Shown: one piece after another, positions 1,118-24,375 of the stretch | Layout of the letters: each line of letters starts with the position of its first letter | Numbering within the stretch: the first letter of the stretch is position 1 | Assembly (NCBI GenBank): GCA_002401855.1 | Contig: NVUH01000011.1 | Span: 1 to 64,000, forward strand | Source: Hyphomicrobiales bacterium | GTDB taxonomy: Bacteria > Pseudomonadota > Alphaproteobacteria > Rhizobiales > OSC116 | Length of the DNA: 64,000 nt | Reading direction: 5' to 3' | Made by a program: the position numbers and the translations under genes | Notes under the pieces: generated by a model | Told to the model about the DNA's origin: nothing | Seen by the model: only the letters and a program-made list of their open reading frames with translations | The model's database searches: none

Positions 1118-1132
1118 AAATGTCTTTCGGAG

Positions 1133-2326: not shown

Positions 2327-2338
2327 TTTATTTTTCTC

Positions 2339-3070: not shown

Positions 3071-3071
3071 A

Positions 3072-4768: not shown

Positions 4769-5625
4769 AAAAATTTCACGATATAAATATAGCTGGTTAG
4801 CCAACAAATTATGATTATTTGGGTGAAACGATCTTTTGCTAAAATCCGAGTTGGATTGCCACTGTTCTGATTCACGAAAGTTATCTTCAAATATCTAATG
4901 ATACCCAAAAGTACGAAAAAACTGGTCAGATAGAGATATTCACCACCCTGTTTAATCTGAGGTGCCATTGAAACAGAATACATAATGTAAGATACCAAAA
5001 TAACGCCTGACATTAGAACCATTGCAGCATTTACGAATTCTAAATTATATCCTTCAATATTCTTACGGGTTTGTTTTCCTTGCCCAGAGAGTAAAACGTC
5101 ATCCCTTCTTTTGGCAAAAGCAAGAAATAACGCCAGTAGAAATGTAAGAATTATTATCCACATAGATAGCTTAATGTCTGCAGCAATGCTGCCCGCAAAA
5201 AGACGCAGGACAAAGCCTGTGGCTATGATGAAGACATCAACAATTACAATGTGTTTTAATTTTAGGGAATAAGCTATATTTAAAACAAAATAAATGGCAA
5301 GAATGGCAAATAAATTCGTATTATATCTGAAGCTTACCACGCCAACAAAAATGCTTAAAAAACTCATTAGAATTAGAGCAACTTTTTCACTTACGGCTCC
5401 ACTGGCTAAGGGTCTATTTTTTTTGGTTGGATGAGCACGATCTTCTTCAATATCCATATAATCATTGATTATGTAAATGCTGCTAGCTAGCAGGGAAAAC
5501 AAAGCAAATGCAATAAAGGATGCTAGGAATTTGTCAAATGTAAATTCAACAGAGAAAATAAATGGAGCAAAAGTAAATATATTTTTAGTGTATTGATGGG
5601 GTCTTAATAGTCTAATGTATTTCAT
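4765..5625 (-). CDS. UbiA-type polyprenyl-phosphate phosphoribosyltransferase
   Basis: A 286-residue integral membrane prenyltransferase. The first Asp-rich motif starts at N54-D55 and runs through D58 and D62, followed by AHPTKKNRP, the form seen in decaprenyl-phosphate phosphoribosyltransferase (Rv3806c) rather than in ubiquinone UbiA. A second motif around YSLKLKHIVIVD follows, with about eight to nine helices. The predicted reaction joins PRPP to polyprenyl phosphate, the committed step of arabinose-lipid synthesis. It is the first gene of the six-gene minus-strand operon, with its promoter in 5626-6107. The family is clear; the exact acceptor lipid is unknown. Confidence 0.85.
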   Translation of the reverse strand: MKYIRLLRPHQYTKNIFTFAPFIFSVEFTFDKFLASFIAFALFSLLASSIYIINDYMDIEEDRAHPTKKNRPLASGAVSEKVALILMSFLSIFVGVVSFRYNTNLFAILAIYFVLNIAYSLKLKHIVIVDVFIIATGFVLRLFAGSIAADIKLSMWIIILTFLLALFLAFAKRRDDVLLSGQGKQTRKNIEGYNLEFVNAAMVLMSGVILVSYIMYSVSMAPQIKQGGEYLYLTSFFVLLGIIRYLKITFVNQNSGNPTRILAKDRFTQIIIICWLTSYIYIVKFL

Positions 5626-6107: not shown

Positions 6108-7157
6108 ATGATTATTCTAGTTACAGGTGGGGCCGGCTTTATTGGTTCCGCAGTTATTCGCCATATCCTCCAAAATACGACCGATACGGTTATAAATGTT
6201 GATTGCCTTACATATGCGGGGAACTTGGATTCACTGAATATAGTGTCCGAAAGTAACCGATATTTTTTTGAGCAGGTCAATATATGTGACAAAGAAAGTT
6301 TGGAGATTGTATTCAAAAAGCATAAGCCTGATATAGTGATGCATCTTGCTGCAGAGAGTCATGTTGATCGCTCTATTGATGGCCCTGCTGAATTTATAAT
6401 GACTAATATAATTGGTACATTTAACCTTTTGGAAGTTTCAAAAGATCATTGGCTACGGCAACAAAAACCTTCCACTTTTAGGTTCCATCATATTTCTACT
6501 GATGAAGTTTATGGTGATTTAACTCATTCGGATGACTTGTTTACTGAAGACACTGCATATGCACCAAGTTCTCCTTATTCAGCATCAAAAGCATCAAGTG
6601 ATCATTTAGTGCGCGCATGGAGAAAAACTTTTAACCTGCCGACGATTGTCACCAATTGCTCGAATAACTATGGCCCCTATCATTTCCCAGAAAAGCTAAT
6701 CCCATTAGTGATTTTGAATATAATAAAAAACAAACCTCTGCCGATATACGGCAATGGCTTGCAGGTTCGTGACTGGTTATATGTAGAGGACCATGCCAGA
6801 GCGTTATACAAAGTTGCGACAGAAGGTGTTATTGGCGAAACATACAATATTGGCGGGCATAATGAGAAAACAAATTTGGAGGTTGTAGAAACCATTTGCG
6901 ATATTATGAATGAACTTATTCCTTCGCAGAAAGTTAACAATTACAAAGATTTGATTGTTCACATTACCGATAGGCCAGGCCATGATTTAAGATATGCAAT
7001 TGATGCACAAAAAATTGAAAGAGAATTAGATTGGAAGCCGCAAGAAAGCTTTGAAACAGGAATACGCAAAACCATCGAATGGTTTCTTGCAAATGAAGAA
7101 TGGTGGTCTCGGGTGATTGATGGATCATATATACGCAAAAATCTTAATGAAAGCTGA
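6108..7157 (+). CDS. rfbB: dTDP-glucose 4,6-dehydratase
   Basis: Second step of dTDP-L-rhamnose synthesis: dTDP-glucose to dTDP-4-keto-6-deoxyglucose, in the cytosol. The 349-residue extended SDR shows TGGAGFIGS at the N-terminus, [11 protein letters not shown] and the YSASK catalytic motif, followed by the RDWLYVEDH signature. Length equals the family norm. It opens the plus-strand cluster and is followed five bases later by rfbA. The start ATG is the first in frame and begins directly with the Rossmann strand. Confidence 0.95.
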
Positions 7158-7162
7158 GTCTT

Positions 7163-8035
7163 ATGAAGGGAATTATACTAGCAGGCGGATCTGGTACGCG
7201 CTTATATCCAATTACGCGAGGTGTTTCGAAACAGCTTTTGCCGATATATGATAAACCGATGATATATTATCCGATATCGGTTCTTATGTTGGCGGGAATA
7301 AGAGATATACTGATCATTTCAACTCCAGAAGATATTGATGGGTATAAACGCCTATTAGGGGATGGAGTGCAGTTTGGCATTAAAATTACATATGCGATAC
7401 AACCTTCACCAGATGGGCTGGCACAAGCGTTTATAATTGGTGAGGATTTTATAGGTGACGATAATGTATGCTTGGTGTTGGGCGACAATATATTTTACGG
7501 CCAAGGGTTTACAGAAAAATTGCAACGCGCGGCTCGTTTAGAGCGGGGAGCCACTGTTTTTGGCTATCCGGTCAAAGACCCCGAGAGGTTTGGTGTTGTT
7601 GAATTTGATAGCGATATGAAAGCCTTATCTATTGAGGAAAAACCTCAAAATCCTAAATCAAATTTTGCAGTAACTGGGTTGTATTTTTACGACAATAGTG
7701 TGGTTGAAATTGCAAAGTCTATCAAGCCTTCTCATCGAGGTGAATTAGAGATTACGAGTGTAAATAATGTATATTTGGAATCCAATAATTTGAACGTTGA
7801 ACTGCTTGGACGCGGTTTCGCTTGGCTCGATACAGGCACACATGAAAGTTTGCTTGAGGCCAGCCAATTCGTACAAACTATTGAACATCGGCAAGGTTTT
7901 AAAATTGCATGCTTAGAGGAAATTGGTTGGAATAATAATTGGCTATCAGATCAAGATATTCTCGACCTTTCTAAGCCTCTGCTCAAAAATGACTATGGAA
8001 AATATCTCCAAGCACTTGTCGAAACAAAATATTAG
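7163..8035 (+). CDS. rfbA: Glucose-1-phosphate thymidylyltransferase
   Basis: First step of dTDP-rhamnose synthesis: glucose-1-phosphate plus dTTP to dTDP-glucose. The 290-residue protein carries the N-terminal GGSGTRLYP nucleotide loop, [11 protein letters not shown], the LGDNIFYG metal site and EEKPQNPKS, all standard for RmlA. Length matches the family (about 290). It lies five bases after rfbB and 23 before rfbD, so the four genes form one operon in the order B-A-D-C. Confidence 0.95.
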
Positions 8036-8058
8036 CAACGTCTTAAAGCGAGGATTCT

Positions 8059-8928
8059 ATGAGAATCATCTTAACAGGGTGCGATGGTCAAGTTGGTAAA
8101 TTTCTATCGAAGAAATTAAATAATATGGCTGATATATTGGCCTTAAGTCGTCATGATTTAGACATTACAAATGAACTGATGGTCCATAAAATTGTAGAGG
8201 ATTTTAAACCAGATTTTATCATCAACGCTGCGGCTTATACCGCTGTAGACAATGCCGAAAGCGAGCAAGAAAAGGCCTATGAAATTAATCGTGATGGCCC
8301 GCTTTACCTTGCAAAAGCCGCGCAGGATATCAATGCAACACTCATACATATTTCAACCGATTATGTGTTTGCAGGTGATAAAGATGGGGTTTATTCGGAA
8401 AGTGATGCCACCAGCCCTCAAAGTGTTTATGGCGCAAGTAAGCTTGCTGGCGAGCAAGCTATAATTGATCATTGCGAAAAGTATATTATTTTAAGAACGG
8501 CATGGGTATTTGGTGAAACGGGCCATAATTTTGTGAAGACTATGCTGCGTTTAGCTGGTGATAGAGACAAATTAAATATTGTAGATGATCAATTTGGTGG
8601 TCCGACATATGCTGGCGATATTGCAGATGCCATCATACTCATTGTTAAAAAAATCAATCATAATGACGTTGTAAACTGGGGTGTCTTCCATTTTTCGGGA
8701 CAGCCATATGTTAGCTGGTTTGAATTTGCAAAAAGTATATTTGAGCAAGCCGAACTGCAAAATTATAGACAACATATCGAATTATCGCCGATCACAACGG
8801 CGCAATTTCCAACTCCTGCGAAGCGACCTGCTAACTCTAAGCTAGAATGTAGCAAAATAAAGCAAGAGTTTTGCATTTCTCCTTCACATTGGCAAAGTGC
8901 CATCCGAAACCTTATCGGTTATATTTAA
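8059..8928 (+). CDS. rfbD: dTDP-4-dehydrorhamnose reductase
   Basis: Last step of dTDP-L-rhamnose synthesis, the NAD(P)H reduction of dTDP-4-keto-rhamnose. The 289-residue protein shows GCDGQVGK at the N-terminus, the STDYVFAGD segment and YGASKLAGE with the catalytic Tyr and Lys. The start ATG at 8059 follows a GAGG-like box. It stands third in the operon and ends 14 bases before the rfbC start used here. Confidence 0.94.
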   Translation: MRIILTGCDGQVGKFLSKKLNNMADILALSRHDLDITNELMVHKIVEDFKPDFIINAAAYTAVDNAESEQEKAYEINRDGPLYLAKAAQDINATLIHISTDYVFAGDKDGVYSESDATSPQSVYGASKLAGEQAIIDHCEKYIILRTAWVFGETGHNFVKTMLRLAGDRDKLNIVDDQFGGPTYAGDIADAIILIVKKINHNDVVNWGVFHFSGQPYVSWFEFAKSIFEQAELQNYRQHIELSPITTAQFPTPAKRPANSKLECSKIKQEFCISPSHWQSAIRNLIGYI

Positions 8929-8942
8929 GAAAGCTAAGCGGT

Positions 8943-9485
8943 ATGAATGTCATTGATACAAATATTCCAGATGTAAAAATAATTGAACCCAAAATATTTG
9001 GTGATGAGCGCGGCTATTTTATGGAAACGTGGCAGCATAATTTATTCAACGAGCTGGTGGCTGAACGAACATTTGTTCAGGATAACCAGTCAAAATCAAA
9101 ACAAGGTATTTTACGCGGCTTGCACCATCAAGAAATAGACACTCAAGGCAAACTTGTGCGGGTCATTTCTGGTGAAGTTTTCGATGTTGCTGTCGATATT
9201 CGGAAACAATCAAAAACATGTGGCCAGTGGGTGGGGGTGCTTTTGTCAGCAGAAAACAGACGCCAACTTTGGGTGCCAGAAGGTTTTGCTCACGGCTTTT
9301 ATGTAACCAGCGAAAGCGCAGAGTTTGTCTATAAATGCACCAATTATTATAATCCATCTTCAGAAATTGCGATTAAATGGAATGATTCAACATTAAATAT
9401 TGATTGGCCAATTATCAAAGGAACTGAGCCGTTATTATCCGATAAAGATGCCAATGCACAAAGTTTTACGGATTATTTGGGTTAA
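8943..9485 (+). CDS. rfbC: dTDP-4-dehydrorhamnose 3,5-epimerase
   Basis: Converts dTDP-4-keto-6-deoxyglucose to dTDP-4-keto-rhamnose. The 180-residue cupin shows FGDERGYFMETW, DNQSKSKQGILRGLHHQ with the catalytic His pair, and YKCTNYYNPSSE. The start was set at the ATG at 8943, which gives the usual N-terminus of about 12 residues before KIIEP-like sequence. The open frame can be read 24 codons further into rfbD, but that segment looks noncoding. It completes the rhamnose set, so the polymer of this locus very probably contains rhamnose. Confidence 0.94.
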   Translation: MNVIDTNIPDVKIIEPKIFGDERGYFMETWQHNLFNELVAERTFVQDNQSKSKQGILRGLHHQEIDTQGKLVRVISGEVFDVAVDIRKQSKTCGQWVGVLLSAENRRQLWVPEGFAHGFYVTSESAEFVYKCTNYYNPSSEIAIKWNDSTLNIDWPIIKGTEPLLSDKDANAQSFTDYLG

Positions 9486-9684
9486 CTCAGGCTGGGTCTG
9501 ATGGTGGTTGTGGACTTATAACAATGAGAAGCCTAACATGGTGATAGGCCGAATAACGTCAATATAAGTCAGGCTAAAGCTGAATAAATGTTCTGCTTTG
9601 AACGAAAGAATTTAATGTTTGATAGTCAAAAATTTACACCATTGTTAACTGGTTGTGCTGGTATTATTAAAACCATCGGTTCGT

Positions 9685-10941
9685 ATGTCAGAAAGTGCAG
9701 CATTGTTTCATAAACTCAAAACACCAAAATTGTTTATATTTTTGGATCAAATGATTGTTAGCGGCAGTAATTTTGCCATTAGTGTGCTGCTGGCTCGTTC
9801 ATTAGGGCTAGATAATTTTGGGCAATATTCGTTGTTATGGTTGGTTGTGCTATTTTCCAGCAGCATTCAATCTGCAATGATAATTTCGCCAATATTAACT
9901 TTTGTTGGCAAAAAAAATCTTACAATAATAGATCAATATCTATCGGTTATGATGGTTTTGCAAATTGCCCTTGCGGTGTTAACGGCTCTGGTGGTGTTTT
10001 TGTTTTTTGAGTTCATTCCCTTATTCAATAAAGATTGGGAAATTGGTGATTTAGCGTTATATGCAAGTTTGTTCATAATGAGCTTTTTAATCCAAGATTT
10101 TTATCGTCGGGTTCTGATTGTTAAAAATAGATATATTCAGCTGATTATGGTTGATCTTGTCGCCTATATAGGTAGCTTATTATATATTGCGTTTGCTAAT
10201 CCCAATGACTTGAAATTTATTTTTAGCGTGCTGTTTGTTTTCTACTGCTTGTCATTTATTTTGGCGCAATTTGGGATAAAGAGAACCAGCACAAGTTGGA
10301 AATATAAGGTCTTAATTTTCAAAAAAAATTGGCACTTTTCTCAATGGTTATTATATTCCGCTATATTACAATGGGGCAGTGGCAACGCTTATACGCTTGC
10401 TTTGGGGGTGTATTTGGGCAATTGGGCAATTGGTGTTATCAGAATTTTACAGAATTTAATGGGTATATTTCATATTGTATTTATAGCGCTAGAGAATATT
10501 TTACCGACAACATTCGCACAACAATATAAATCATCTGGTTTAACCGGTATGATGCGCATTTTTAAACAACAAATTCAATATGCCGCAATATTTTTTCTGT
10601 TATTTGGGTTGGTGATTTATTTTCAAGCAGGTCATATTATTGAATTTATATATGGAAGCGAATATCAAGCGTATGCAAATCTATTGATATGGTATGTGGT
10701 GATTTACTTTTTCATCTATTTGTCAATGTTGCAGAGGTATATTTTACGTGCTACAGAAAAAACCAAAGTTATTTTTATTAGTTATATTGCAACCGCAGCG
10801 TTCGGGCTTTCAACGTCTCAGTATTTTGTTTCGAACTACGAATTTAAAGGTGCAATTATAGGAATGCTTATTCTTCAGGTGATTATCGTGGCTATTTTTT
10901 ACGTTACCATTAAACAAAAAGAACAAATGAAATCATCATGA
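9685..10941 (+). CDS. Wzx-type polysaccharide flippase
   Basis: A polytopic protein of 418 residues with about twelve hydrophobic helices and the N-terminal pattern of the MATE/PST export superfamily (RSLGLDNFGQYSLLW). Such proteins move lipid-linked repeat units across the inner membrane. The ATG at 9685 was preferred; a GTG ten codons upstream (9655) is possible. Its 3' end overlaps the next gene by four bases. The presence of a polymerase-like neighbour supports a Wzx/Wzy route. No substrate can be read from sequence. Confidence 0.82.
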   Translation: MSESAALFHKLKTPKLFIFLDQMIVSGSNFAISVLLARSLGLDNFGQYSLLWLVVLFSSSIQSAMIISPILTFVGKKNLTIIDQYLSVMMVLQIALAVLTALVVFLFFEFIPLFNKDWEIGDLALYASLFIMSFLIQDFYRRVLIVKNRYIQLIMVDLVAYIGSLLYIAFANPNDLKFIFSVLFVFYCLSFILAQFGIKRTSTSWKYKVLIFKKNWHFSQWLLYSAILQWGSGNAYTLALGVYLGNWAIGVIRILQNLMGIFHIVFIALENILPTTFAQQYKSSGLTGMMRIFKQQIQYAAIFFLLFGLVIYFQAGHIIEFIYGSEYQAYANLLIWYVVIYFFIYLSMLQRYILRATEKTKVIFISYIATAAFGLSTSQYFVSNYEFKGAIIGMLILQVIIVAIFYVTIKQKEQMKSS

Positions 10942-11921
10942 AAACAACCATATTTGCTACAAATCTATTAAGTGTTTTTTTTGAGGAGTTGAACAAGTCC
11001 GAAATAGATTATTTAGTTTTGAGGAATTATGAAGGCTTACCTGAAACAAATTCTTCAAAAGATGTTGATTTTTTAATTGCGGATGAAGACCATTTAAAAG
11101 CCCATAATTTACTGATCAGATTATCCAAAAAGCTAGGCTATAATGTCATTTGGGTTAATAAATTGGATTATCTTTTTGGCTATGCCATGTTCAAATCTGC
11201 AGATAAGCATGTTGAAACCATAAAAATTGATTTGTTTTCTGGGTTAAAGTGGCGCGGGTTGAATTTTATGGATGAAAAAATAATTTTTGAAAACAAACTT
11301 AAATATAAAATCTTATACATACCAAGTAAATCTCATGAAGCCTTTGTGATGATTTTGTATTACATTCTTTATGCGAAACAAATCAGGCAAAAATATCATT
11401 CAAACATAGTTGAGTTAAGTAAAGACCATCCGGGTTTTGGTTTAATCTCAGAACAAACTTTGAATCATCAATTACGTGATCAGATGTTAGAATTTATTGA
11501 TAACGGTCAAATTGATATGCTAGTCAGCCTACGCGGACAAATTGTTAAGGAGATTGTGGGAAGAAATTTAAAATTGGTTTTAACCTCATTAAAACAGTTA
11601 TTTCAGCACTTATATTGTGAAGTTTTAAAGAGAAATTCGTTTGGTGTGATATTAATTGTAAATGATGAGGCAATGAGAAATGACTTGTCGTTATTATTTG
11701 GTGAGTTGGGCATTAGCGAGCAAAAAGAGGTTCAATTGAAAAGCTTGAGCCTGTTACAGGTTTTTAGAAAACTCAGAAGAAATAACATTATGGTTTCGGA
11801 AAATAGACAAGTTTCACGGCTTCAATCAATTTTATTTAGAAGCAAAATTTTGGATGCAAGGCAATTTAACTTAAAACAAATTGCTGAGCATATGGAGAAG
11901 AATTTGGGAAAAGAGTTATGA
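10938..11921 (+). CDS. Nucleotidyltransferase-fold protein with a decayed kinase-like half
   Basis: A 327-residue soluble protein. The N-terminal half has LVLRNYEGLP (about residues 26-35) and KDVDFLI (41-47) with two Asp, then IKIDLF with D98, the spacing of a nucleotidyltransferase fold. The C-terminal half from about residue 233 (SFGVILIVNDEAMRNDLSLL) sits where related polysaccharide-locus proteins carry a P-loop kinase domain, but here the G-x4-GK[ST] motif is gone. A separate P-loop kinase is encoded at 16696, in the same operon. ATGA overlaps join it to both neighbours. Function unknown; a role in modifying the repeat unit is inferred. Confidence 0.6.
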   Translation: MKTTIFATNLLSVFFEELNKSEIDYLVLRNYEGLPETNSSKDVDFLIADEDHLKAHNLLIRLSKKLGYNVIWVNKLDYLFGYAMFKSADKHVETIKIDLFSGLKWRGLNFMDEKIIFENKLKYKILYIPSKSHEAFVMILYYILYAKQIRQKYHSNIVELSKDHPGFGLISEQTLNHQLRDQMLEFIDNGQIDMLVSLRGQIVKEIVGRNLKLVLTSLKQLFQHLYCEVLKRNSFGVILIVNDEAMRNDLSLLFGELGISEQKEVQLKSLSLLQVFRKLRRNNIMVSENRQVSRLQSILFRSKILDARQFNLKQIAEHMEKNLGKEL

Positions 11922-13033
11922 AGATATTGCACTTTTTCTTAGGAAAGGCGAATCCAGACCGTGCCAATGGGGTAAACCACGTTATAAATGGTTATGGAAA
12001 AGAATTGGCTAAAAATGGCGTTACCGCCCATTTTGTTGGCCTCAGTTCTTTGGATAATGCACAATCTGATATAATTCAGAGAGATGGCTTTGAAGTGGAG
12101 GTTTATGATGGTTTTTTCTCCAACTGCCTGCCGAGGCTAAAAGAGCTGGCTTTTGAGGTGGACATTGTTCACTTACACAGCGTCTGGAACCATTATAATA
12201 TCTATTTTGCTAGATTTTTAATTAAAAATAAGATTCCCTATGTCATAACAGCTCATGCTGGATTGGTTGAAGATCGGTTGAATCAATCTAGAAAATTATT
12301 AAAAATAATTTATCATAAACTGTTGCAAAAACCAGTTTATGACAAAGCATCAGGTATCCATGCGATTACGAAAGAAGAAATACTTTCTATCGCCCGAAAT
12401 ACAGACAATGAAAATATATTTCATGTTTCAAATGGGCTGGATCTCAAAAATTTCCCTTTAAAAAGTAAAGAGCATTTTTCACAATCAATCATAAAAATTG
12501 GCTATTTGGGGCGGTTTGGTGTTGAAAAAAACCTAGCTAGCCTTATCAAAGCCTTACACATTTTGCCCAAACAATATGCCGCTCAAATAGAGCTGAATTT
12601 GATCGGGCCGATTGATGGGGATGCTGAAAAATTACGGGTGATGATTGATGATTTGGGTGTGAAAAATGTTGTTTTTACGGGTGCGATTTATGGCGCTGAA
12701 AAATATGATTTTCTAGGAAAATTAGATTTCTATATTCATCCTGCTCTATCTGATGTGGTTAGCATTGCTTTAATGGAGGCGTTTGCATCAGGTTTGCCAA
12801 CAATCGTCACTCGAACTTCGCATGTTTCATATTATTATAAATCAAATGCATTCATAATGGTTGAACCAACTTTTAATGATATAAGCCGAGCTATTATTGA
12901 TATGCTTGACAAGAAAAGTGATTGGAAAGACATGTCTCAAAGTGCCATTGATTTAGTGAAGACAAGTTTTGATTGGAAAAATAACGCTAAAGACATGATA
13001 CATGAATATGAGCAAATATTAGAGTTAACATGA
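11918..13033 (+). CDS. GT4-family glycosyltransferase
   Basis: A 371-residue GT-B glycosyltransferase. An N-terminal G-rich acceptor loop (NGVNHVINGYGKEL) and HLHSVW are followed by YLGRFGVEKNLASLIKAL, the linker of family 4, and the donor-site motif EAFASGLPTIVT with an acidic residue before it. It uses a nucleotide sugar to extend the lipid-linked repeat unit on the cytosolic face. Four-base overlaps with the genes on either side show translational coupling. Sugar specificity cannot be read. Confidence 0.88.
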   Translation: MKILHFFLGKANPDRANGVNHVINGYGKELAKNGVTAHFVGLSSLDNAQSDIIQRDGFEVEVYDGFFSNCLPRLKELAFEVDIVHLHSVWNHYNIYFARFLIKNKIPYVITAHAGLVEDRLNQSRKLLKIIYHKLLQKPVYDKASGIHAITKEEILSIARNTDNENIFHVSNGLDLKNFPLKSKEHFSQSIIKIGYLGRFGVEKNLASLIKALHILPKQYAAQIELNLIGPIDGDAEKLRVMIDDLGVKNVVFTGAIYGAEKYDFLGKLDFYIHPALSDVVSIALMEAFASGLPTIVTRTSHVSYYYKSNAFIMVEPTFNDISRAIIDMLDKKSDWKDMSQSAIDLVKTSFDWKNNAKDMIHEYEQILELT

Positions 13034-14232
13034 AATATTTTTACATATCATTCTGTGTTTATATAATAATATCAAAATTATTTGTTAATCCAGAAGGCTC
13101 GGTTACGGGAAGTTTTAAAGCTTCATCTGCGGCTTATATTGTTGCCATTATTTCACTTGCCTTTGTGGCGATTATTAATGTCAAACATATAAAATCCACA
13201 CTTAAAACCTCACTGCATTTTTTTTCGGCCTTACCGCTATGTTATTATACATTGGCCTTATTAATGGCGCCCATCTCACTGATTCCGGTGATTAGTATTT
13301 TTAACAGTCTTTTGGCTCTGGGCTTTGTTTTGGTCGGAATTTCTATCGGCCAGTTTATAAATAGATTCCCTTTAGAAAAAAAGCTTAGTTTGTTTTACAA
13401 TCTTGTTCGGGTGATTTTATATTCTGAAATCGTTGGAAAAATTATCAGTCAATATATGTATGTATCTAGCTTTTCAATATTTAATCTGCAGGGTGGGTAT
13501 ATCGCCGTACTTTCAATCTTTTTAGGACTGTGGCACCTCATTGAATATTATGAAAACCGTCGTTTTAAGGGACTGGTTTATTTTATACTATATTTTATTC
13601 TTACTTGGCAGCTTCATTCATTTTCTGCGTTTTTAGCGTTTTATGCCGCTTTGGTCATTATATTCTATTTCAGAAGAAAACTTGTAATTGCAACTTTGCT
13701 AGGGCTGGCGCCTTTTTTAACTCTATCACTTATCATCGCATATCTTAATGCAAATTTGGATCAGGTGATATTTGGTAAAAGCGCAGGGGCATACCTAATC
13801 GGCAGCGGACGCTTTCAAATTTATTGGGCATCACTCGACGCATATAGCAATCTAGACCTTTTTAGGCAAATACTCGGCGTTGGGTATATGTCAGAACGTG
13901 ATATACTTGCTGGCTATGATCTTTCTTGGTCAATTGATTCTCACAATTCCTTTTTAGTGTCATTATTAGGGATGGGATTCATTGGTGCAAGTCTATATTT
14001 GTTTTTTGTCGGCATTCCCTATTTTAAAAGAAAAAAAGTCACTTTAAATGTGGGGCGCACTATTTTTATCAAATGGATAGCCATGCATACACTATTTTTC
14101 ATATATGGCATTACATCTAGTTCCTATATGGCTAGGCCCTCAATACTGGTTTTCCTTTACATTGTATTTGCATATATAGTTTTTTGCCCCCAAACACCGC
14201 AGAAACAGAGTAGGCTAGATCTAAACGGATAA
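13030..14232 (+). CDS. Wzy/O-antigen ligase-like polymerase
   Basis: A 400-residue membrane protein with roughly eleven helices and one larger periplasmic loop near residues 240-310. That loop holds GSGRFQIYWASLDAYS and WSIDSHNSFLVSLLGMGFIG; the R...H pattern and the SHNSFL motif are typical of the Wzy_C/O-antigen ligase family. It probably polymerises repeat units in the periplasm. It follows a glycosyltransferase with a four-base overlap. Sequence in this family is poorly conserved, so polymerase versus ligase is not decided, but its place in a capsule cluster favours polymerase. Confidence 0.78.
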   Translation: MKYFYISFCVYIIISKLFVNPEGSVTGSFKASSAAYIVAIISLAFVAIINVKHIKSTLKTSLHFFSALPLCYYTLALLMAPISLIPVISIFNSLLALGFVLVGISIGQFINRFPLEKKLSLFYNLVRVILYSEIVGKIISQYMYVSSFSIFNLQGGYIAVLSIFLGLWHLIEYYENRRFKGLVYFILYFILTWQLHSFSAFLAFYAALVIIFYFRRKLVIATLLGLAPFLTLSLIIAYLNANLDQVIFGKSAGAYLIGSGRFQIYWASLDAYSNLDLFRQILGVGYMSERDILAGYDLSWSIDSHNSFLVSLLGMGFIGASLYLFFVGIPYFKRKKVTLNVGRTIFIKWIAMHTLFFIYGITSSSYMARPSILVFLYIVFAYIVFCPQTPQKQSRLDLNG

Positions 14233-14238
14233 ATTCAA

Positions 14239-15444
14239 ATGAAAACAGTTCTAATTACCGCTTATGATATTAACCCCTATAAAGGATCAGAAGCTGGCAC
14301 GGGTTGGAGATATCCTTTGATGATTTCCTCAGAATATAATGTGATTGCGATTACCCGTAAAAATAATAAACAGAATATTGAGAAATATATTACCGAACAT
14401 AATATTGATGTTAAAAGATTGCGTTTTGAATATTATGATTTGCCGTATTTTTTGAGATTTTGGAAGAAAGGCGCTCGTGGGTCGGGCATATATTTTTACT
14501 TATGGCAATTATTTATGCCGATTTTCATATTGAAATCTCAATTAAAGGCCGATGTCTATCATAACCTTAATTTCCATGCAGATGCATTCCCAACATTATT
14601 ATGGGTGTTTAAGAAGCCACTAATTTGGGGGCCAATAAATCATAATGAGCGAATTCCAAAACAATATGTCGATAGTAGCAAAGAAAAGCTGAAATGGATG
14701 GCAAAATTGTTTTTTTGGAATTTTGACCCGTTTTTATGGTTGGCAAAACGCAATTCAGACTTAATTTTAGGCGGGAATTCGAGTGTAAAAAAGAGGCTGC
14801 GTATTGACGATAAAAAATTTGTAGCTTTTTCGCAAGTGGGCGGTGAAAAACCCGTTCGGCAAGACAAAGAATTAGGTGAGAAATCAAGTGAGGTTTTCCA
14901 AATATTGGTGATTGGGCGATTCATTGAAATAAAGTCGTTTGACCTGGCCATTCGGGCGTTTGAGAAATTTGTTGCTAAATTGCCCGACACTGCAAATGTT
15001 CAACTCACTATCATTGGTAAGGGGCCATTGGAGGCCAAGTTAAAAGCGCAGGCCGCCGCCACTTCTGTGCATCAGAAGATTGTATTTATAGACTGGCTAA
15101 ATCCGCAAGAGTTGAATGATTTTTACGCCTCCTCGGATGTTTTCTTGTTTCCCTCACATGAAGGTGCGGGCATGGTTGTCGTCGAGGCGCTATCTTTTGG
15201 CCTGCCCGTTGTCTGTTTTGATAATTCAGGGCCAGGCGAGCTTGTGGGTGGCCATAGCGCCTTAAAGATAAAATATACCAACCCCAGCCAAAGCGTCGAA
15301 GATTATTCAATTGCGTTAGAAAAGTTATATTCTGATAAGAATTTATACAATAAACTATCCAAAGCAGCGATTTTTAGATTTGACGAAAAATATAATTGGC
15401 AACAAAAACAAAAATGCCTATTGGAAATATACAAGATGCTTTAA
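14239..15444 (+). CDS. GT4-family glycosyltransferase
   Basis: A 401-residue GT-B enzyme. The N-terminus reads YDINPYKGSEAGTGWRYP, a GSEAGTG acceptor loop characteristic of one group of family 4 transferases. The donor side shows VIGRFIEIKSFDLAIRAF, FPSHEGAGMVVVEALSFGLPVVCF (read in two parts) and GPGELV. It is cytosolic or peripheral, and extends the lipid-linked oligosaccharide. It lies six bases after the polymerase gene and 31 before the kinase-like gene. Linkage unknown. Confidence 0.87.
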   Translation: MKTVLITAYDINPYKGSEAGTGWRYPLMISSEYNVIAITRKNNKQNIEKYITEHNIDVKRLRFEYYDLPYFLRFWKKGARGSGIYFYLWQLFMPIFILKSQLKADVYHNLNFHADAFPTLLWVFKKPLIWGPINHNERIPKQYVDSSKEKLKWMAKLFFWNFDPFLWLAKRNSDLILGGNSSVKKRLRIDDKKFVAFSQVGGEKPVRQDKELGEKSSEVFQILVIGRFIEIKSFDLAIRAFEKFVAKLPDTANVQLTIIGKGPLEAKLKAQAAATSVHQKIVFIDWLNPQELNDFYASSDVFLFPSHEGAGMVVVEALSFGLPVVCFDNSGPGELVGGHSALKIKYTNPSQSVEDYSIALEKLYSDKNLYNKLSKAAIFRFDEKYNWQQKQKCLLEIYKML

Positions 15445-15475
15445 GAATAGATAGGTTAAACAATGGCGTGGATGG

Positions 15476-16699
15476 ATGAAAAGTAACTTTTCTAAGCTTG
15501 AGCAGGGCGATAAAAAACTATTAGAAAACTTAATGAGTGATGGTGAAGCTGGCTTAAGCGATGAAACAAGCTTATCTGTATCGTATATTTGCAATCCTGA
15601 TGGCACTATAAGGTGGTTATTTAATAGCCATCACAGTAAACCATATTTTCTTATTTTTTATTGCGCCGCTACGATTAAGGCAAAGATTTTTAGCTTTGGC
15701 ATTAGAGTTCTATATTTTGTGCGGCTCTCCAATATTGTAAATTCGGGTGAAATGAAAATTAGCATCGCCAGTGAAAGCCGGGTCGGGAAAATATTAAACA
15801 GAAATAATTGTCGTGACTTTTCTATATTTACCGGCACAGTTGGCGAAAATAGAAAGGCACTGATTGAGTTGCACGAAGATGGGCAGACTTTTGCCATTGC
15901 AAAAATTCCTATTTCTGGCCAATCACAAAAATTAGTTGAAAATGAAGCGGCTATGCTCAAATTGGTCGCAAATATTGACACGCCAAATTTAGTTGTGCCG
16001 CAAATTAGAAATATATATAAAGATGCAAGCATAGAGCTGAGCAATGTGAAGTTTCCTGGTGTGAAACAATCGTTTGACTTAAAAGACGTGCATGTAAATG
16101 CTTTGCTGCCGCTTGTTGAGAATTCAATCACTAGTGATTGGTTGGCTTTAGAGGCCATGCAACAAAGCAAAATAAGATGCCAACGACTTCGTGAAAATTA
16201 TGAAATTATAAACGAATTAGACCAAAAAAGAATTCATAAAATAATAGATAATGTTGCCAAATTAATTGATATATTGGAAGCGTCTGACAATCCTGTTGTG
16301 CTGGGCATAGCGCATGGAGATTTCACACCTTGGAATATGTATCATAAGAAAAATAAGTTATTTCTATTTGATTGGGAATTAGGGAGTGAAGCGACGCCGG
16401 TTCTTTTTGACTATTTTCATTTTATTTTTCAATCCGAAATATTAATGAAACAATCGGCATTTACCGACATTGAAGCTAGCATCAGAAAAATGCTAAAACT
16501 CAAAAATGTTAGAAATTTAATCGAAACAAAAAATATAAACATTCAACAGCAGTTTATGTTTTACCTGATATCTATTTCGTCTTACTATATTGAAAAATAT
16601 GTAAACCAGGCGAAACTACATTCTCAGTCTTTTGATCTTATAGCCGTTTGGGAGACAGCGATAAATGAAGTGTTATCTGGAAACTGTGAGTTTAAATGA
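15476..16699 (+). CDS. Aminoglycoside-phosphotransferase-like kinase of the polysaccharide locus
   Basis: A 407-residue protein whose C-terminal two thirds is an APH/choline-kinase fold: FAIAKI with a lysine at 143, an ENEA glutamate at about 157, the catalytic HGDFTPWNM at 280-288 and LFDWE with D299 for metal binding. The first 100 residues are an extra domain of unknown type that contains YCAATIKAKIFSFG. The intact catalytic motifs argue for real phosphotransfer. It overlaps the P-loop kinase gene by four bases, so the two probably act together. The substrate is unknown; phosphorylation of a sugar, polyol or lipid-linked intermediate is an inference. Confidence 0.72.
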   Translation: MKSNFSKLEQGDKKLLENLMSDGEAGLSDETSLSVSYICNPDGTIRWLFNSHHSKPYFLIFYCAATIKAKIFSFGIRVLYFVRLSNIVNSGEMKISIASESRVGKILNRNNCRDFSIFTGTVGENRKALIELHEDGQTFAIAKIPISGQSQKLVENEAAMLKLVANIDTPNLVVPQIRNIYKDASIELSNVKFPGVKQSFDLKDVHVNALLPLVENSITSDWLALEAMQQSKIRCQRLRENYEIINELDQKRIHKIIDNVAKLIDILEASDNPVVLGIAHGDFTPWNMYHKKNKLFLFDWELGSEATPVLFDYFHFIFQSEILMKQSAFTDIEASIRKMLKLKNVRNLIETKNINIQQQFMFYLISISSYYIEKYVNQAKLHSQSFDLIAVWETAINEVLSGNCEFK

Positions 16700-17355
16700 A
16701 AAATAATAAAGTGAGAATCATCACCTTTAGCGGTGTTGATGGTGCCGGAAAAACAACAATTTTAACAGAATTTTCAAGAATCCTAGCAACAAAATACCAA
16801 GAAAATATTGTATTCCTTCGTCACCGGCCATCTATTCTACCTATATTGAGCGCCATAAAGCATGGGCGTAAGAAAGCCAGTGAAAAAACCATGGAGTCAT
16901 TGCCTCGAACTGGTGGAAATAAGTCTAAACTGTCTTCATATATTAGATTTTTTTATTATTTAACGGACTTTATATTGGGGCAATGGATTGTCTATTTTAA
17001 ATATAGTTTAAATGGAAAAATAATTATATATGATAGATATTATTTTGATTTTATTTTTGATTCCAGAAGAAGTAATATTGATTTAAGTGAGGGGTTTGTT
17101 AGTTTTTTTTATAGATTTGTTTTTAAGCCTGAAATGAATATTTTTTTGTATGCTGACCCTGATATAATTTTACAACGTAAGCAAGAATTGGATAAACAAA
17201 CTATTGAAAAACTAACCCAAAAATATGTAAGTTTTTTCAATAAACAAAAAAACAACAAGCAATATATTTGTATTGAGAATATAGATATTAGCGACACTCT
17301 CGAACATATTGAAAAAATATATTCCGAGAAAATTGGAAAAGGTGAGAATGCTTAA
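16696..17355 (+). CDS. Thymidylate-kinase-like P-loop kinase of the polysaccharide locus
   Basis: A 219-residue P-loop protein with Walker A GVDGAGKTT at residues 13-21 and DRYYFDF at about 113-119, which is the DR(Y/H) motif of thymidylate kinases. It lacks the other landmarks of a housekeeping Tmk and sits inside a polysaccharide operon, so it is unlikely to serve DNA synthesis. Related proteins in capsule loci are often fused to a nucleotidyltransferase-like domain; here that domain is encoded separately at 10938. Four-base and eight-base overlaps link it to its neighbours. The substrate is unknown. Confidence 0.72.
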   Translation: MKNNKVRIITFSGVDGAGKTTILTEFSRILATKYQENIVFLRHRPSILPILSAIKHGRKKASEKTMESLPRTGGNKSKLSSYIRFFYYLTDFILGQWIVYFKYSLNGKIIIYDRYYFDFIFDSRRSNIDLSEGFVSFFYRFVFKPEMNIFLYADPDIILQRKQELDKQTIEKLTQKYVSFFNKQKNNKQYICIENIDISDTLEHIEKIYSEKIGKGENA

Positions 17356-18055
17356 ATTTTCTATTGAAAAGCTCATTCAGAAATTGAAAAATAAAGACTT
17401 TAAATTTGATCAAAGCATCACAACCAGTATGTTGCTGTCATTGCTATTTCAATATTCTATGTCGCTCATTCGGGGGCTTAAATTTTTGAATTTTAAAAAC
17501 CGCGGGCTTTTACTGTTTTTGGGGCAAAGAGTTAAGTTTCAATATCGTGGGAATATAGAATTTGGAGATAATGTAAAAATTGGTGATTTTTCTAAATTGT
17601 CGGGTCTTGGTTGCCAAAAATTAACCATTGGACATAACGTATCTATTGCCGCATTTTCGCAAATAATCATCTCAACGTCGTTCAATAATATTGGTAAATA
17701 TATAAGGATTGGAGATAATGTTGGTATTGGCGAGTTTGCATATATCGGTGGTGGTGGCGGTGCGATGATCGGGAAAAACACCATAATTGGCCAATACTTC
17801 AGCATTCATCCCGAAAATCATAATTTTTCAAAACTAAAACCACTTATCAAAGAGCAAGGGGTTACCCGCGAGGGGGTAAATATTGGTGAAAATTGTTGGA
17901 TTGGGTCTAAAGTCACAATCTTAGATGGGGTAACTGTCGGCTCTGGATGTATCATAGCGGCAGGAGCTGTTTTGACTAATGGTGAGTTTGAAAATAATTC
18001 TATAATAGCTGGTGTGCCTGCAAAAGTTATTAGGAAAAGAGCTGACGATGGGTAA
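17348..18055 (+). CDS. Left-handed beta-helix acyltransferase (WcaF/CatB type)
   Basis: A 235-residue hexapeptide-repeat transferase. Repeats run from about residue 65 onward (NIEFGDNVKIGDFSKLSGLG and later IGDNVGIGEFAYIGGGG), with a catalytic-His loop HPENHNF and the terminal coil IGENCWIGSKVTILDGVTVG, then AGVPAKVI. It probably O-acetylates a sugar of the repeat unit using acetyl-CoA. The ATG at 17348 was chosen because it follows GGAAAAGGTGAGA; a start at 17309 lies deep inside the upstream gene. It overlaps the kinase gene by eight bases and the next glycosyltransferase gene by eight. Confidence 0.86.
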   Translation: MLKFSIEKLIQKLKNKDFKFDQSITTSMLLSLLFQYSMSLIRGLKFLNFKNRGLLLFLGQRVKFQYRGNIEFGDNVKIGDFSKLSGLGCQKLTIGHNVSIAAFSQIIISTSFNNIGKYIRIGDNVGIGEFAYIGGGGGAMIGKNTIIGQYFSIHPENHNFSKLKPLIKEQGVTREGVNIGENCWIGSKVTILDGVTVGSGCIIAAGAVLTNGEFENNSIIAGVPAKVIRKRADDG

Positions 18056-19145
18056 AAAAATAATTTTTGTTCATTTGCTCAATGATTTTAGCGGTAGCCC
18101 CAAGGTTCTGGCTCAAGTTATCAGCTCGTTAAAGTCAAAAAATAATGATTTAGAATTATATGTTGGCAATGATGATGGCGGCTTTCTTTCCGACCTTGGC
18201 ATAGACTCGCATAATTATCGCTATAAACGGTTTGGAAATAAAATTCTAACCCTGTTCTCATATATATGGTCTCAGGCTCGGTTATTTGTTGCGCTGTTAA
18301 AATACAGAAAACAAGATATCGTTATATATATTAATACGATGCTACCATTTGGGGCGGCAATCGCCGGAATGGTTTTACGTAAACCAGTATATTATCATAT
18401 ACATGAAACATCAATCAGGCCTCATTTACTAAAAAAATTCCTGAGAAAGATAATTTCCATATCTGCGGTAAAAATTATCTTTGTATCTCGTAGTTTGGAA
18501 AAAACCGAAGCGTTTAAAGGTGTCAATCAGCGAGTTATTTATAATAGTTTGCCAAGAGAATTTATAGAAAAAGCGGACAATTTTGCTTTAAAGCTGCAGC
18601 CAGCATCTGATCAATTTGTTACATTGCTTATATGTTCTCTTAAAAAATATAAGGGTGTTGATGAGTTCGTTCAAATTGCAAAAAAATGTGAAATAGATAA
18701 ATCTCTTAAATTTCATTTGATTTTAAATGCAACCCAAGTTGAAATTGATGCTTATTTTGAAAGTCAAAATTTGCCGTCAAACCTCACGCTTTATGGAAAA
18801 CAAACTGAGCTGCATTCATTTTATCAATCTGCTGATCTTCTGCTTAATTTATCATTAAAAGATCAGTGGGTAGAAACCTTTGGCTTGACTATATTAGAAG
18901 CGATGGCATATGGTTTGCCGTGCATAGTTCCGCAATCAGGAGGCCCTACTGAGCTTATTGAAAACGATATTAATGGGTATCAAATTGATGCCTATAATGT
19001 TGATGAAATATCAAATCGAATTATTGAATTGTCAAAAAACGAAAAGCTTCTGAAAAAATTGTCATTTAATGCGCGTGAAAAATGTAAAGTATTTGACCCA
19101 TCAATTTTCGAATTACAGATAATTGATTTATTCAACAATAAATAA
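18048..19145 (+). CDS. GT4-family glycosyltransferase
   Basis: A 365-residue GT-B enzyme. The N-terminal domain begins KKIIFVHLLNDFSGSPKVLAQ with an FSGSPK loop, and the C-terminal domain shows QWVETFGLTILEAMAYGLPC, the ExxxxGLPxI donor motif, and GGPTELI. The ATG at 18048 fits an AGGAAAAGAG box just upstream and avoids a long overlap with the acetyltransferase gene. A GTG at 18012 is in frame but unlikely. It extends the repeat unit; its sugar is unknown. Confidence 0.86.
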   Translation: MGKKIIFVHLLNDFSGSPKVLAQVISSLKSKNNDLELYVGNDDGGFLSDLGIDSHNYRYKRFGNKILTLFSYIWSQARLFVALLKYRKQDIVIYINTMLPFGAAIAGMVLRKPVYYHIHETSIRPHLLKKFLRKIISISAVKIIFVSRSLEKTEAFKGVNQRVIYNSLPREFIEKADNFALKLQPASDQFVTLLICSLKKYKGVDEFVQIAKKCEIDKSLKFHLILNATQVEIDAYFESQNLPSNLTLYGKQTELHSFYQSADLLLNLSLKDQWVETFGLTILEAMAYGLPCIVPQSGGPTELIENDINGYQIDAYNVDEISNRIIELSKNEKLLKKLSFNAREKCKVFDPSIFELQIIDLFNNK

Positions 19146-19163
19146 TAATTGAGGAAATGATCT

Positions 19164-20237
19164 ATTAAAAATGTATCAATTATAGGATCGGTGGGAGTGC
19201 CAGCTCAATATGGCGGCTTTGAAACGCTTGCTGAATATCTAGTTAAATATCTGAATGAGGAAGCAAATATAACAGTCTATTGTAGTGGGACTGCATATAA
19301 GGATAGGCTCAATTCCTATAATGGCGCGCAATTAAAATATATAAATTTGAATGCAAATGGTGTTCAAAGCATTCCTTATGACGTAATATCAATATTAAAA
19401 TCGCTTAAACATTCTGATACAATCTTAATTTTAGGCGTTTCAGGCTGCATTATTCTGCCAGTTATAAAATTATTTAGCAAAAAGAACATTATTGTCAATA
19501 TTGATGGCTTGGAATGGAAACGACAAAAATGGAGTCGCTTCGCAAAGTTATTTTTAAAATTTTCTGAAAAAATTGCAGTGAAAAATGCCACTTCGGTTGT
19601 TACAGATAATAAAGTCATTCAAGATTATGTGTATAGCGAATATAATGTCTCGAGCCATTTAATAGCCTATGGTGCTGATCATGTTAAAAAGCGGTCACTT
19701 AGCGATGAAATTAGCAATAAATACCCATTCTTAGATGGTGATTATTATTTTAAGGTCTGTCGGATTGAACCTGAAAATAATGTTGAAATGATTATAAAGG
19801 CTTTTTCAATTAATCCCAATTTTAAACTGGTTATTGTGGGCAATTGGCAGAATAGCGAATATGGCTGTAAGCTCAAAGAGAAATATAAGGTATTTGATAA
19901 CTTACATTTGCTGGCGCCGATATATGATCAAGATATCTTAAATCAAATACGGAGCAATTGTATTGTTTATGTTCACGGACATAGCGCCGGAGGCACAAAC
20001 CCGTCTCTCGTTGAGGCCATGAGCCTCGGGCTGCCAATTGTTGCTTATGGTGCGAATTATAACCAGGAAACAACGCATTTTAAAGCTCATTATTTTGATG
20101 ATGTTGAAAGCTTGTCCGAAACTCTTCTCAGACTTAGCAAAGAAAATATAATGCAGAATAGTCTGGATATGAAATTAATTTCTGATCAACATTATACTTG
20201 GGCAAAAATATCAAAACAGTATTCTGATCTTTTTTGA
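19164..20237 (+). CDS. DUF1972-type rhamnosyltransferase-like glycosyltransferase, apparent ATT start
   Basis: A GT4 enzyme with the N-terminal VPAQYGGFETLAEYL block and YGADHV of the DUF1972 group, several of which are rhamnosyltransferases (streptococcal Cps2T-like). The C-terminal end carries GTNPSLVEAMSLGLPIVAY. No ATG, GTG or TTG gives a full first Rossmann strand: the first standard start, GTG at 19191, would remove KNVSIIGS. In frame, ATT at 19164 starts the expected (M)KNVSIIGSVGVPAQYGG and sits nine bases after GAGG at 19151-19154. The frame is closed by TGA at 19158. About 357 residues. With rfbBADC nearby, rhamnose transfer is likely. Confidence 0.8.
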   Translation: MKNVSIIGSVGVPAQYGGFETLAEYLVKYLNEEANITVYCSGTAYKDRLNSYNGAQLKYINLNANGVQSIPYDVISILKSLKHSDTILILGVSGCIILPVIKLFSKKNIIVNIDGLEWKRQKWSRFAKLFLKFSEKIAVKNATSVVTDNKVIQDYVYSEYNVSSHLIAYGADHVKKRSLSDEISNKYPFLDGDYYFKVCRIEPENNVEMIIKAFSINPNFKLVIVGNWQNSEYGCKLKEKYKVFDNLHLLAPIYDQDILNQIRSNCIVYVHGHSAGGTNPSLVEAMSLGLPIVAYGANYNQETTHFKAHYFDDVESLSETLLRLSKENIMQNSLDMKLISDQHYTWAKISKQYSDLF

Positions 20238-20374: not shown

Positions 20375-21418
20375 CTACTTATAAATACTGGTTTGTTTGG
20401 GAGGCATTACTCTTATCTTGGGTGTGTATATAAAATAGCTTGAGAAACAAATTATGATGAATACGAAGATGAGAAGCATGGTTAGATCGCTGGCAGCAAA
20501 ATATTCTCCTAAATACCCAATTACTGAGATGGATATTGCCAAAATGGATATAATGAATACTGTTTGGTGGCTTGAGAAGCCTTTATTCATTAATCTGTGA
20601 TGGATATGGTCTCTTTGTGGTCGAATGGGAGACTGGCCTTTTCTAATGCGGTTAAATACATTAAATATTAAATCGATTAAAGGTACGGAAATAATGTATA
20701 GAATGGTAACAGGTTTAAAAGCGTGTTCAACATATGCGCCAAGTAATGCCAGCCAACTAATCGTAAAACCTAATAACATTGCACCAGAATCGCCAACAAA
20801 AATCTTAGGCGCGAAGTTTAATAATTTTAAATTGAATATTAAATAAACAACAATGGCTACGCAGATGACGAATGATAATGCGGTGAATTCAGAATTGGCT
20901 TGAGCCAGAAAAATTCCTAAAGTTAATATAGAAATTAAGGAAATCATCCCTAAAAGACCATCAATACCATCTACCATATTGTAAGAATTAACATTTCCCA
21001 TGAAAAATATTACGGATAATACAATACCAGCAATTCCCATATGAATATCACCAAATACACTAATGTTACCGATATAATCAATATAGAGGTTGCTCAATGT
21101 TATAACCGAAAGTGCAGAAATGAATTGAACAATTAGTCTATAGCGTACCCGTATATCATACATGTCATCTAAAACGCCCACCAAGAGCAACATGCTGGCG
21201 CCAATGATATAGCTGACTATATAAATGTTGAATTGGCTGAACACTATAAAATAAACAATAATTGAAAAATAAATTGCTATTCCGCCAACTAGGGGTATCG
21301 AGCCATTATGTAGTTTTCTGCTATTCGGGACATCAACCAAACCGACTTTTTTAGCGATTGGGATGAGAGACATTATAGAAAGTAATGTAATTATAAATGT
21401 GGGAACGATCACTATCAT
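20375..21418 (-). CDS. wecA: WecA/MraY-family polyprenyl-phosphate sugar-1-phosphate transferase
   Basis: A 347-residue integral membrane enzyme with about eleven helices. Motifs seen in order: SIPLVGGIAIY, GVLDDMYDIR with the catalytic DD, NMVDGIDGLLG, KIFVGDSGAMLLG and the RPQRDHIHHRL loop diagnostic of the WecA group. It transfers a HexNAc-1-phosphate, probably GlcNAc-1-P, from UDP-sugar to undecaprenyl phosphate and so starts the repeat unit. It converges on the plus-strand cluster across a 137-base gap. No PglC or WbaP-like initiator is visible in the window, so this is the likely primer of the locus. Confidence 0.9.
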   Translation of the reverse strand: MIVIVPTFIITLLSIMSLIPIAKKVGLVDVPNSRKLHNGSIPLVGGIAIYFSIIVYFIVFSQFNIYIVSYIIGASMLLLVGVLDDMYDIRVRYRLIVQFISALSVITLSNLYIDYIGNISVFGDIHMGIAGIVLSVIFFMGNVNSYNMVDGIDGLLGMISLISILTLGIFLAQANSEFTALSFVICVAIVVYLIFNLKLLNFAPKIFVGDSGAMLLGFTISWLALLGAYVEHAFKPVTILYIISVPLIDLIFNVFNRIRKGQSPIRPQRDHIHHRLMNKGFSSHQTVFIISILAISISVIGYLGEYFAASDLTMLLIFVFIIICFSSYFIYTPKIRVMPPKQTSIYK

Positions 21419-23894: not shown

Positions 23895-23921
23895 AATTAT
23901 TTCCTAAACTTAAATATATTG

Positions 23922-24362: not shown

Positions 24363-24375
24363 AAAAGACCTTAAA

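Follow-up and report, generated by a model that had tools for sequence, protein, structure and literature searches.

Three genes of a Hyphomicrobiales exopolysaccharide locus encode a putative nucleotidyltransferase and two putative kinases that probably act jointly

The stretch analyzed here, 64,000 nucleotides of Hyphomicrobiales bacterium contig NVUH01000011.1 (positions 1 to 64,000; the window), carries an exopolysaccharide locus with genes for a nucleotidyltransferase (NT), a kinase of the aminoglycoside phosphotransferase type (APH) and a P-loop kinase resembling thymidylate kinase (TMK-like). The three proteins probably act jointly in an undescribed step which phosphorylates or nucleotide-tags a building block of the sugar coat. 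Joint action, proposed in a first-pass annotation of this DNA, is strongly supported by two orders of gene fusion, near-constant co-location and conserved sites. All three open reading frames (ORFs) were found intact at the positions given there; they are separate in the window, as that annotation had said, and the APH and TMK-like genes overlap as described, by 4 bases. The APH gene starts about 30 bases past the preceding glycosyltransferase (GT) gene, and the NT gene overlaps both neighboring genes. The three genes and their sites are as follows:

10938-11921, + strand: NT, with a predicted Pol-beta-fold nucleotidyltransferase domain (about residues 1-205) and a C-terminal stretch, a possible remnant of a lost kinase half
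11061-11069 (D42/D44) and 11229-11231 (D98), + strand: putative catalytic aspartates of NT
15476-16699, + strand: APH-type kinase with a family-specific N-terminal region
15902-15904 (K143), 16313-16336 (HGDFTPWN, residues 280-287) and 16370-16378 (DWE, residues 299-301), + strand: APH sites
16696-17355, + strand: TMK-like P-loop kinase, inside the Bacteroidota triple-fusion clade, without AYQ motif
16732-16755 (P-loop, residues 13-20) and 17032-17040 (DRY, residues 113-115), + strand: TMK-like sites

Genome contigs were scanned with the TMK-like alignment alone, and at least 80 loci of 119 relatives were kept. Fifty of 80 loci encode APH, NT and TMK-like domains in this order in one ORF (two are frameshifted inside the TMK domain, one is cut at its 5' end), and 19 combine an NT-TMK fusion with a separate APH gene. 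All three genes are separate in a single locus (SAR86, L089); eight loci have NT-TMK without APH, five of them on short contigs, and two have the TMK-like gene only (L082, L094). Locus L082 lies at a contig end and shows a weak APH-like signal downstream (13.4 bits). NT and TMK-like share one ORF in 77/80 loci, the kinase part being frameshifted in two (L080, L081); this bears out the earlier statement that NT is fused to a kinase in related loci. Three-domain loci span Bacteroidota, Balneolota, Pseudomonadota, Nitrospirota, Planctomycetota, Omnitrophota, Thermodesulfobacteriota, Aminicenantes and an archaeon. On a Hymenobacter swuensis plasmid APH-NT-TMK is one 823-residue protein, and a plasmid of Agrobacterium leguminum has NT and APH matches on the same record, its NT being an NT-TMK fusion. 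Four plasmid records of Leisingera matched; the two examined carry APH followed by a TMK-containing ORF, with a weak match of the NT profile in L012 (15 bits) and no match of this profile in L013. Among 101 relatives, genome G030 has an NT-TMK fusion. In genome G075, NT and TMK-like genes lie 4 kb apart in one cluster with a weak APH-like gene (17.6 bits, family profile).

Independent seeding was carried out by searching with each family profile in the same 378 genomes of the window's phylum, which we take to be Pseudomonadota, at E-value limits of 1e-5 for NT and 1e-12 for both APH and TMK-like. NT matched in eight genomes, APH in five and TMK-like in six. The annotation had suggested to check for families occurring alone: all five APH and all six TMK-like places share a contig with an NT place, at most 1.5 kb apart except in the window, where the distances from NT are 4.0 and 5.2 kb. 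On the NT side three of eight matches are short of one partner, one being G262 with a weak NT and APH without TMK-like, and one (G388) is a weak NT with neither partner at threshold. All three families occur together in four genomes, G000, G116, G128 and G147; G000 as well as G030 supplied profile rows and so match by construction, and G116, G128 and G147 belong to one genus. G128 (L117 70-2913) has a permuted fusion, NT-TMK-APH, in one ORF of 948 residues, and in G116 and G147 the APH is a separate overlapping ORF. The existence of two fusion orders suggests selection for joint action rather than a single accident of descent.

Conservation of active-site residues was determined after domains under 110 (NT), 170 (TMK) and 200 residues (APH) had been dropped and loci L016 and L017 (G015, G098) left out. 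D42, D44 and D98 of NT are kept in 80/80 aligned relatives. APH residue K143 is kept in 70/72 and E157, H280, D282, N287, D299 and E301 in 71/72 relatives, and the window protein has all the Lys, Glu, HxDxxxxN and DxE elements of APH-type kinases. G13, D15, G16, G18, K19, R114, D118, K162 and E164 of TMK-like are kept in 84/84. Hence the "intact" NT half, the "complete" APH catalytic residues and the "good" P-loop and DRY motif of the first-pass annotation are all upheld, the first of them also by the predicted fold described below. As the catalytic residues are nearly invariant, each of the three domains probably still catalyzes. The APH-search matches G015 and G098 were rejected as relatives; in the ORF lists, judged by eye, they looked like unrelated kinases in other surroundings.

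Sequence searches of Pfam, NCBIfam and PDB with the window NT (327 amino acids) gave no match at E ≤1. Its structure was predicted for residues 1-215 from a 57-row alignment (predicted local distance difference test score, pLDDT, 89.8), and structure comparison of the model revealed a nucleotidyltransferase fold of the Pol-beta type. MenT1 (8an4) ranked top with Z 11.4 and a root-mean-square deviation (rmsd) of 3.3 over 159 residues, tied with Helicobacter pylori JHP933 (4ok0; Z 11.1, rmsd 4.7 over 166). Also close are ANT(2'')-Ia (Z 10.0, rmsd 4.0 over 150) and LnuA (Z 9.5, rmsd 4.5 over 137), both transferases which put a nucleoside monophosphate (NMP) on hydroxyls; identity in the four structural alignments is 9-12%. 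The fold (as modeled) and the D-x-D ... D/E triad that mark the Pol-beta superfamily are both present. At the place of the hG/GS motif before D-x-D, LRN or LK stands in most NT rows of the alignment, as judged by eye. PF14907 (NTP_transf_5) did not match the window NT, and 5/57 family members match it at E ≤0.1, the best at 0.0013.

Since MenT1 is the top structural match, the NT may be a MenT/TglT-like enzyme that is restrained via phosphorylation by the attached kinase or kinases and thereby tunes polymer synthesis. The Mycobacterium tuberculosis toxin-antitoxin system Rv1044-Rv1045 works through toxin phosphorylation, according to excerpts of PMC7205606, and 6j7q, which is Rv1045, is among the structural matches of NT. 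However, all three domains retain their active-site residues in different phyla, polysaccharide genes surround the module, and the defence library yields weak matches only; we therefore regard such regulation as very unlikely. A defence or toxin-antitoxin module was rejected on the same surroundings and on PADLOC scores of 13.8-23.6 bits, mostly to the P-loop, and is retained as a low rival.

The annotation had also assigned a decayed P-loop half to the NT protein. The window NT is 32% identical to the Colwellia NT-TMK fusion over 240 residues, and this homology ends at residue 239, at about the first strand of the kinase domain; to this extent the claim stood. Its P-loop did not: the TMK-like profile gives residues 201-327 a score of -0.7 bits, and they show no P-loop. 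The SAR86 locus, which has a separate TMK-like gene, encodes an NT (L089 8896-9960) whose C-terminal stretch shows no recognizable resemblance to a kinase; here the kinase half may have been lost a second time, independently.

The window APH matches PF01636 at 1e-4 (22.6 bits), just below the cut-off of 23.2, which is exceeded by two plasmid relatives (24.2 and 23.8 bits); 34/42 APH family members match this model at E ≤0.1. Weak profile matches include aminoglycoside phosphotransferases.

The TMK-like protein of the window passes the cut-off of PF02223 (2.2e-10, 40.9 bits; cut-off 27) and remains under that of NCBIfam TIGR00041 (42.5 bits; cut-off 83.25); the L031 triple protein scores 25.3 bits with PF02223, under the cut-off. 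The triple protein of Chryseobacterium gambrini was modeled with pLDDT 91.0 and a predicted template modeling score of 0.86. The last domain of this model (L031 triple protein) has the TMK fold (Z 19.3, rmsd 2.9 over 178), and the fold of TMK-like is assigned from this model, not from the window protein. Foldseek and VIA returned TMK chains only, among the matches listed for the triple-protein model.

If TMK-like were an ordinary dTMP kinase, it could feed dTDP-rhamnose synthesis, with NT and APH as unrelated neighbors. The adjoining rfbABDC genes, the PF02223 score, a match to the phage family phrog_761 "thymidylate kinase" at 1.2e-10 and its position as the sole PF02223 match of the assembly would fit. 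Yet in a genome search with PF02223 the protein reached 36 bits compared with 141-168 bits for 13 canonical relatives. Six of these 13 dTMP kinases were compared further: all six have the thymine-site motif AYQ after DR[YF], whereas it follows DR[YFH] in none of 85 TMK-like family members. A REPGGT-type loop, a further dTMP kinase motif, was not seen by eye in TMK-like, and NT and TMK-like form one ORF in nearly all TMK-seeded loci. On this evidence TMK-like is not an ordinary dTMP kinase; we consider this explanation extremely unlikely, and it was discarded on the low scores and the absent AYQ in spite of the PF02223 and phrog_761 matches. Phage cargo was searched for with the TMK-like protein as the only query, and no tblastn match at 1e-6 was found in the phage collection. 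In the window's own assembly (G000) the TMK-like gene is the only PF02223 match, and a canonical tmk is present in four of five genomes of the same genus; the single match probably reflects an assembly gap (94.7% complete) and would otherwise be remarkable.

The window arrangement appears to be composite. In the TMK tree, which leaves out L080 and L081 (frameshift), contains several long-branched distant rows and is used here for the Bacteroidota-plus-window clade only, the window TMK-like lies inside the Bacteroidota clade with support 100/99; its placement within the clade is weak (98/55). It is 47-49% identical to L011 and L033 compared with 31% to Colwellia. Identities of window APH are 33% (L033), 27% (Colwellia) and 25% (L011), and in the APH tree its row falls among those of Bacteroidota, where a weakly supported fork joins it to the Colwellia and SAR86 rows. 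With phmmer, window NT matches NT or NT-TMK proteins from other loci, including two of Prevotellaceae. Iterative profile searches from window NT or from triple-protein NT both reach 88 ORFs in 88 loci; because these searches converge and the Asp triad is shared, the two are regarded as one family. The simplest reading of these comparisons is a merger of an NT-TMK fusion minus its kinase half with an APH/TMK pair minus its NT domain, and complementary losses in the merged versions would explain why the window has each activity once.

Judged from its genes, the window cluster looks like an exopolysaccharide locus of the Wzx/Wzy type, with putative assignments of Wzx and Wzy: by family match, WecA, Wzc, Wzb and Wza were found, Wzx matched weakly and Wzy had no family match. 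The genes around the module are as follows:

6108-9485, + strand: rfbB, rfbA, rfbD, rfbC (order rfbBADC), dTDP-L-rhamnose supply
9655-10941, + strand: putative Wzx flippase; weak MatE match under the cut-off, homologous to Wzx-position genes of related loci
11918-13033, + strand: GT4-type glycosyltransferase, 49% identity to a Colwellia locus gene
13030-14232, + strand: putative Wzy polymerase, from position and membrane-protein look only; no family match
14239-15444, + strand: GT4-type glycosyltransferase; in Bacteroidota its counterpart is the first GT behind the triple protein
17366-18055, + strand: hexapeptide-repeat acyltransferase, directly 3' of TMK-like as in Bacteroidota loci
18048-19145, + strand: GT4-type glycosyltransferase
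19191-20237, + strand: DUF1972/Cps2T-like transferase, a rhamnosyltransferase by similarity, under the NCBIfam cut-off
20375-21418, - strand: WecA-like initiating phosphoglycosyltransferase
21747-25497, - strand: Wzc autokinase, low-molecular-weight tyrosine phosphatase (Wzb-type) and Wza exporter

The typical order in Bacteroidota is Wza, Wzc, Wzx, GT, Wzy, APH-NT-TMK, acyltransferase, GT, GT, DUF1972 GT and WecA; rearranged Bacteroidota loci include L075 and L078. The window has the same order of APH, TMK-like, acyltransferase, GT4 and DUF1972, and its TMK-like, acyltransferase and DUF1972 proteins are 47-56% identical to those of L011 and L033. In the TMK-seeded loci, many of which have cut flanks, the GT following the module matched at >25 bits in 73/80 and the next GT in 63, with GT4 labels that cross-match one another; the acyltransferase matched at >25 bits in 59/80 and the DUF1972 GT in 53. 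A search for NT, APH and TMK-like in five same-genus genomes, among the 101 relatives, gave zero matches; the cluster therefore looks accessory. Further upstream in the window (527-5625, - strand) lies a divergent group matching HAD phosphatase, short-chain dehydrogenase, FAD-binding oxidase, GtrA and UbiA, which resembles the DprE1/DprE2/UbiA route to polyprenyl-phosphate arabinose. Downstream of the Bacteroidota operon (L040 16258-20602) there are genes that we take to encode a response regulator of the sigma-54 type, a hybrid histidine kinase and a FIST-like protein; ORF clusters that include the kinase were found again in 23 of the 80 loci, and those that include the FIST-like protein in 10.

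For the function of the module we favor, at about even chances, one enzyme system with a short cytosolic pathway leading to a phosphorylated, nucleotide-activated unit or substituent of the repeat. A phosphorylated or nucleotide-linked component, as proposed by the first-pass annotation, fits the predicted folds, and the module shares its operon with GT4s, acyltransferase, DUF1972 GT, WecA, Wzc and Wza. It is likely that the three steps act on one substrate, and fairly likely that the product ends up in the glycan. APH would phosphorylate a hydroxyl of a small molecule or sugar, NT would join an NMP to this intermediate, and TMK-like would add a further phosphate to the anionic product; all transfers would depend on nucleoside triphosphates and take place in the cytosol, and the resulting unit or substituent would be placed on the repeat unit before export by Wzx. 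NT and TMK-like are the tightest pair (one ORF in 77/80), so APH plausibly comes first; the order APH, NT, TMK-like as such is rather doubtful.

Several observations weigh against this pathway. Pol-beta nucleotidyltransferases use hydroxyls, not usually phosphates, which counts against the order APH to NT. Loci L018, L019 and L041 have NT-TMK without APH although their upstream DNA extends over 9.3 kb or more (downstream of the L041 module there is only 1.85 kb), L094 has TMK-like alone, and G030 and G308 of the 378 genomes have NT and TMK-like without APH at threshold. None of the 50 triple proteins was matched by the window NT with phmmer at E 1e-3. Finally, single-linkage clustering of ORFs from the 80 loci revealed neither a further constant gene inside the operon nor an obvious extra transferase for a non-sugar group, and a dedicated substituent transferase was rejected on this result; the clustering put all GT4s into one group with the triple proteins (279 ORFs), and Wza fell together with 64 unlabeled ORFs (101 ORFs, median 7.6 kb upstream). 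The product would then have to be consumed by a GT, the acyltransferase or one of the three domains themselves.

An alternative is direct decoration, in which APH and NT put phosphate and NMP on sugar hydroxyls of the lipid-linked oligosaccharide and TMK-like phosphorylates the added group, with no soluble donor. The clustering result agrees with it, and enzymes acting on sugar hydroxyls are among the closest folds and sequences, namely ANT(2'')-Ia and, as weak profile matches, aminoglycoside phosphotransferases. A TMK fold, however, normally uses a small phosphorylated acceptor, and a soluble protein that unites three such domains is not known to us from glycan-modifying enzymes; direct decoration is unlikely.

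The close pairing of NT and TMK-like could also mean that NT makes an NMP-sugar, like CMP-Kdo or CMP-sialate, which is spent by a GT, the freed NMP being rephosphorylated by TMK-like. Pol-beta nucleotidyltransferases transfer NMP to hydroxyls, as described in the excerpted text of PMC4125220. But the base-site motif of dTMP kinases is lost in the TMK-like family, and all four GTs with a family match in the window (11918-20237) match the Glycos_transf_1/GT4 group. To our knowledge this group is not known for NMP-sugar donors, and we consider an NMP-sugar donor with recycling quite improbable.

No description of an APH-NT-TMK triad was found among the papers listed by literature searches aimed at it, with most subscription journals outside their coverage, in agreement with the earlier opinion that no described pathway fits. 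Excerpts of the Flavobacterium johnsoniae genetics paper (PMC10936215) hold nothing on the triple-protein gene, and by the words searched no such genes appear in excerpts on a Sphingomonas cluster (PMC11340318). Neither the L031 triple protein nor the permuted NT-TMK-APH protein reaches the cut-off of a Pfam or NCBIfam model, and the Colwellia APH has no NCBIfam match; the Colwellia NT-TMK is just over the PF02223 cut-off on its kinase half (27.9 vs 27 bits), and single domains of other family members do exceed Pfam cut-offs. For the pathway favored here, the module would be an addition to the precursor or tailoring machinery of polysaccharides, and possibly more if the chemistry is new. Tentatively, and with somewhat less confidence than in the pathway itself, we propose a new trifunctional kinase-nucleotidyltransferase-kinase that yields a donor of a new class, nucleotide-activated and doubly phosphorylated, or else a phosphate or nucleotide decoration of a glycan that has no precedent, in an operon strongly conserved across Bacteroidota and split or permuted in distant phyla including at least one archaeon. 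Three stray annotations ("hypothetical", "phosphotransferase", "thymidylate kinase") are turned into one testable enzyme that occupies a constant position in the operon of many Bacteroidota exopolysaccharide loci. Finding its product would reveal a new component of an environmental biofilm polymer, be it a building block or a decoration, and would correct the names given to TMK-like genes other than dTMP kinases.

Among known systems, JHP933, MenT1, ANT(2'')-Ia and LnuA have their fold in common with the predicted window NT and differ from it in sequence, as noted, and in context, which for the window NT is polysaccharide synthesis. According to excerpts of PMC4125220, JHP933 has the D-x-D pair as in window NT and Glu as third acidic residue, and its substrate is not identified; at its G motif the window NT family has the LRN/LK stretch (by eye). 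Bacterial dTMP kinase (Tmk, PF02223) has fold, P-loop and DR[YF] in common with TMK-like, from which AYQ and the REPGGT-type loop are absent and which misses the TIGR00041 cut-off. With the APH/choline-kinase superfamily (PF01636) the window APH has in common the catalytic loop, the metal-binding D, Lys and Glu; it differs by its own N-terminal region of about 110 residues and by its weak match (22.6 bits). PAPS synthetase (ATP sulfurylase-APS kinase) likewise combines nucleotidyl transfer and a P-loop kinase in one chain; unlike the module, it has another nucleotidyltransferase fold, no APH domain and sulfate as substrate. The O-methyl phosphoramidate (MeOPN) capsule pathway of Campylobacter jejuni (Cj1415-Cj1418) consists of four separate proteins, of other folds than the module. 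Excerpts of PMC11800397 describe this pathway as likewise using a kinase, a cytidylyltransferase and a further kinase to obtain a phosphate-bearing donor for a capsule decoration; its four enzymes convert glutamine, ATP and CTP into CDP-phosphoramidate 3'-phosphate. The decoration is lost on deletion of Cj1421 or Cj1422 (PMC11800397, excerpts), pointing to dedicated transferases, of which none was seen in the window operon. The C. jejuni pathway is an example of such logic in a capsule, achieved with other enzymes.

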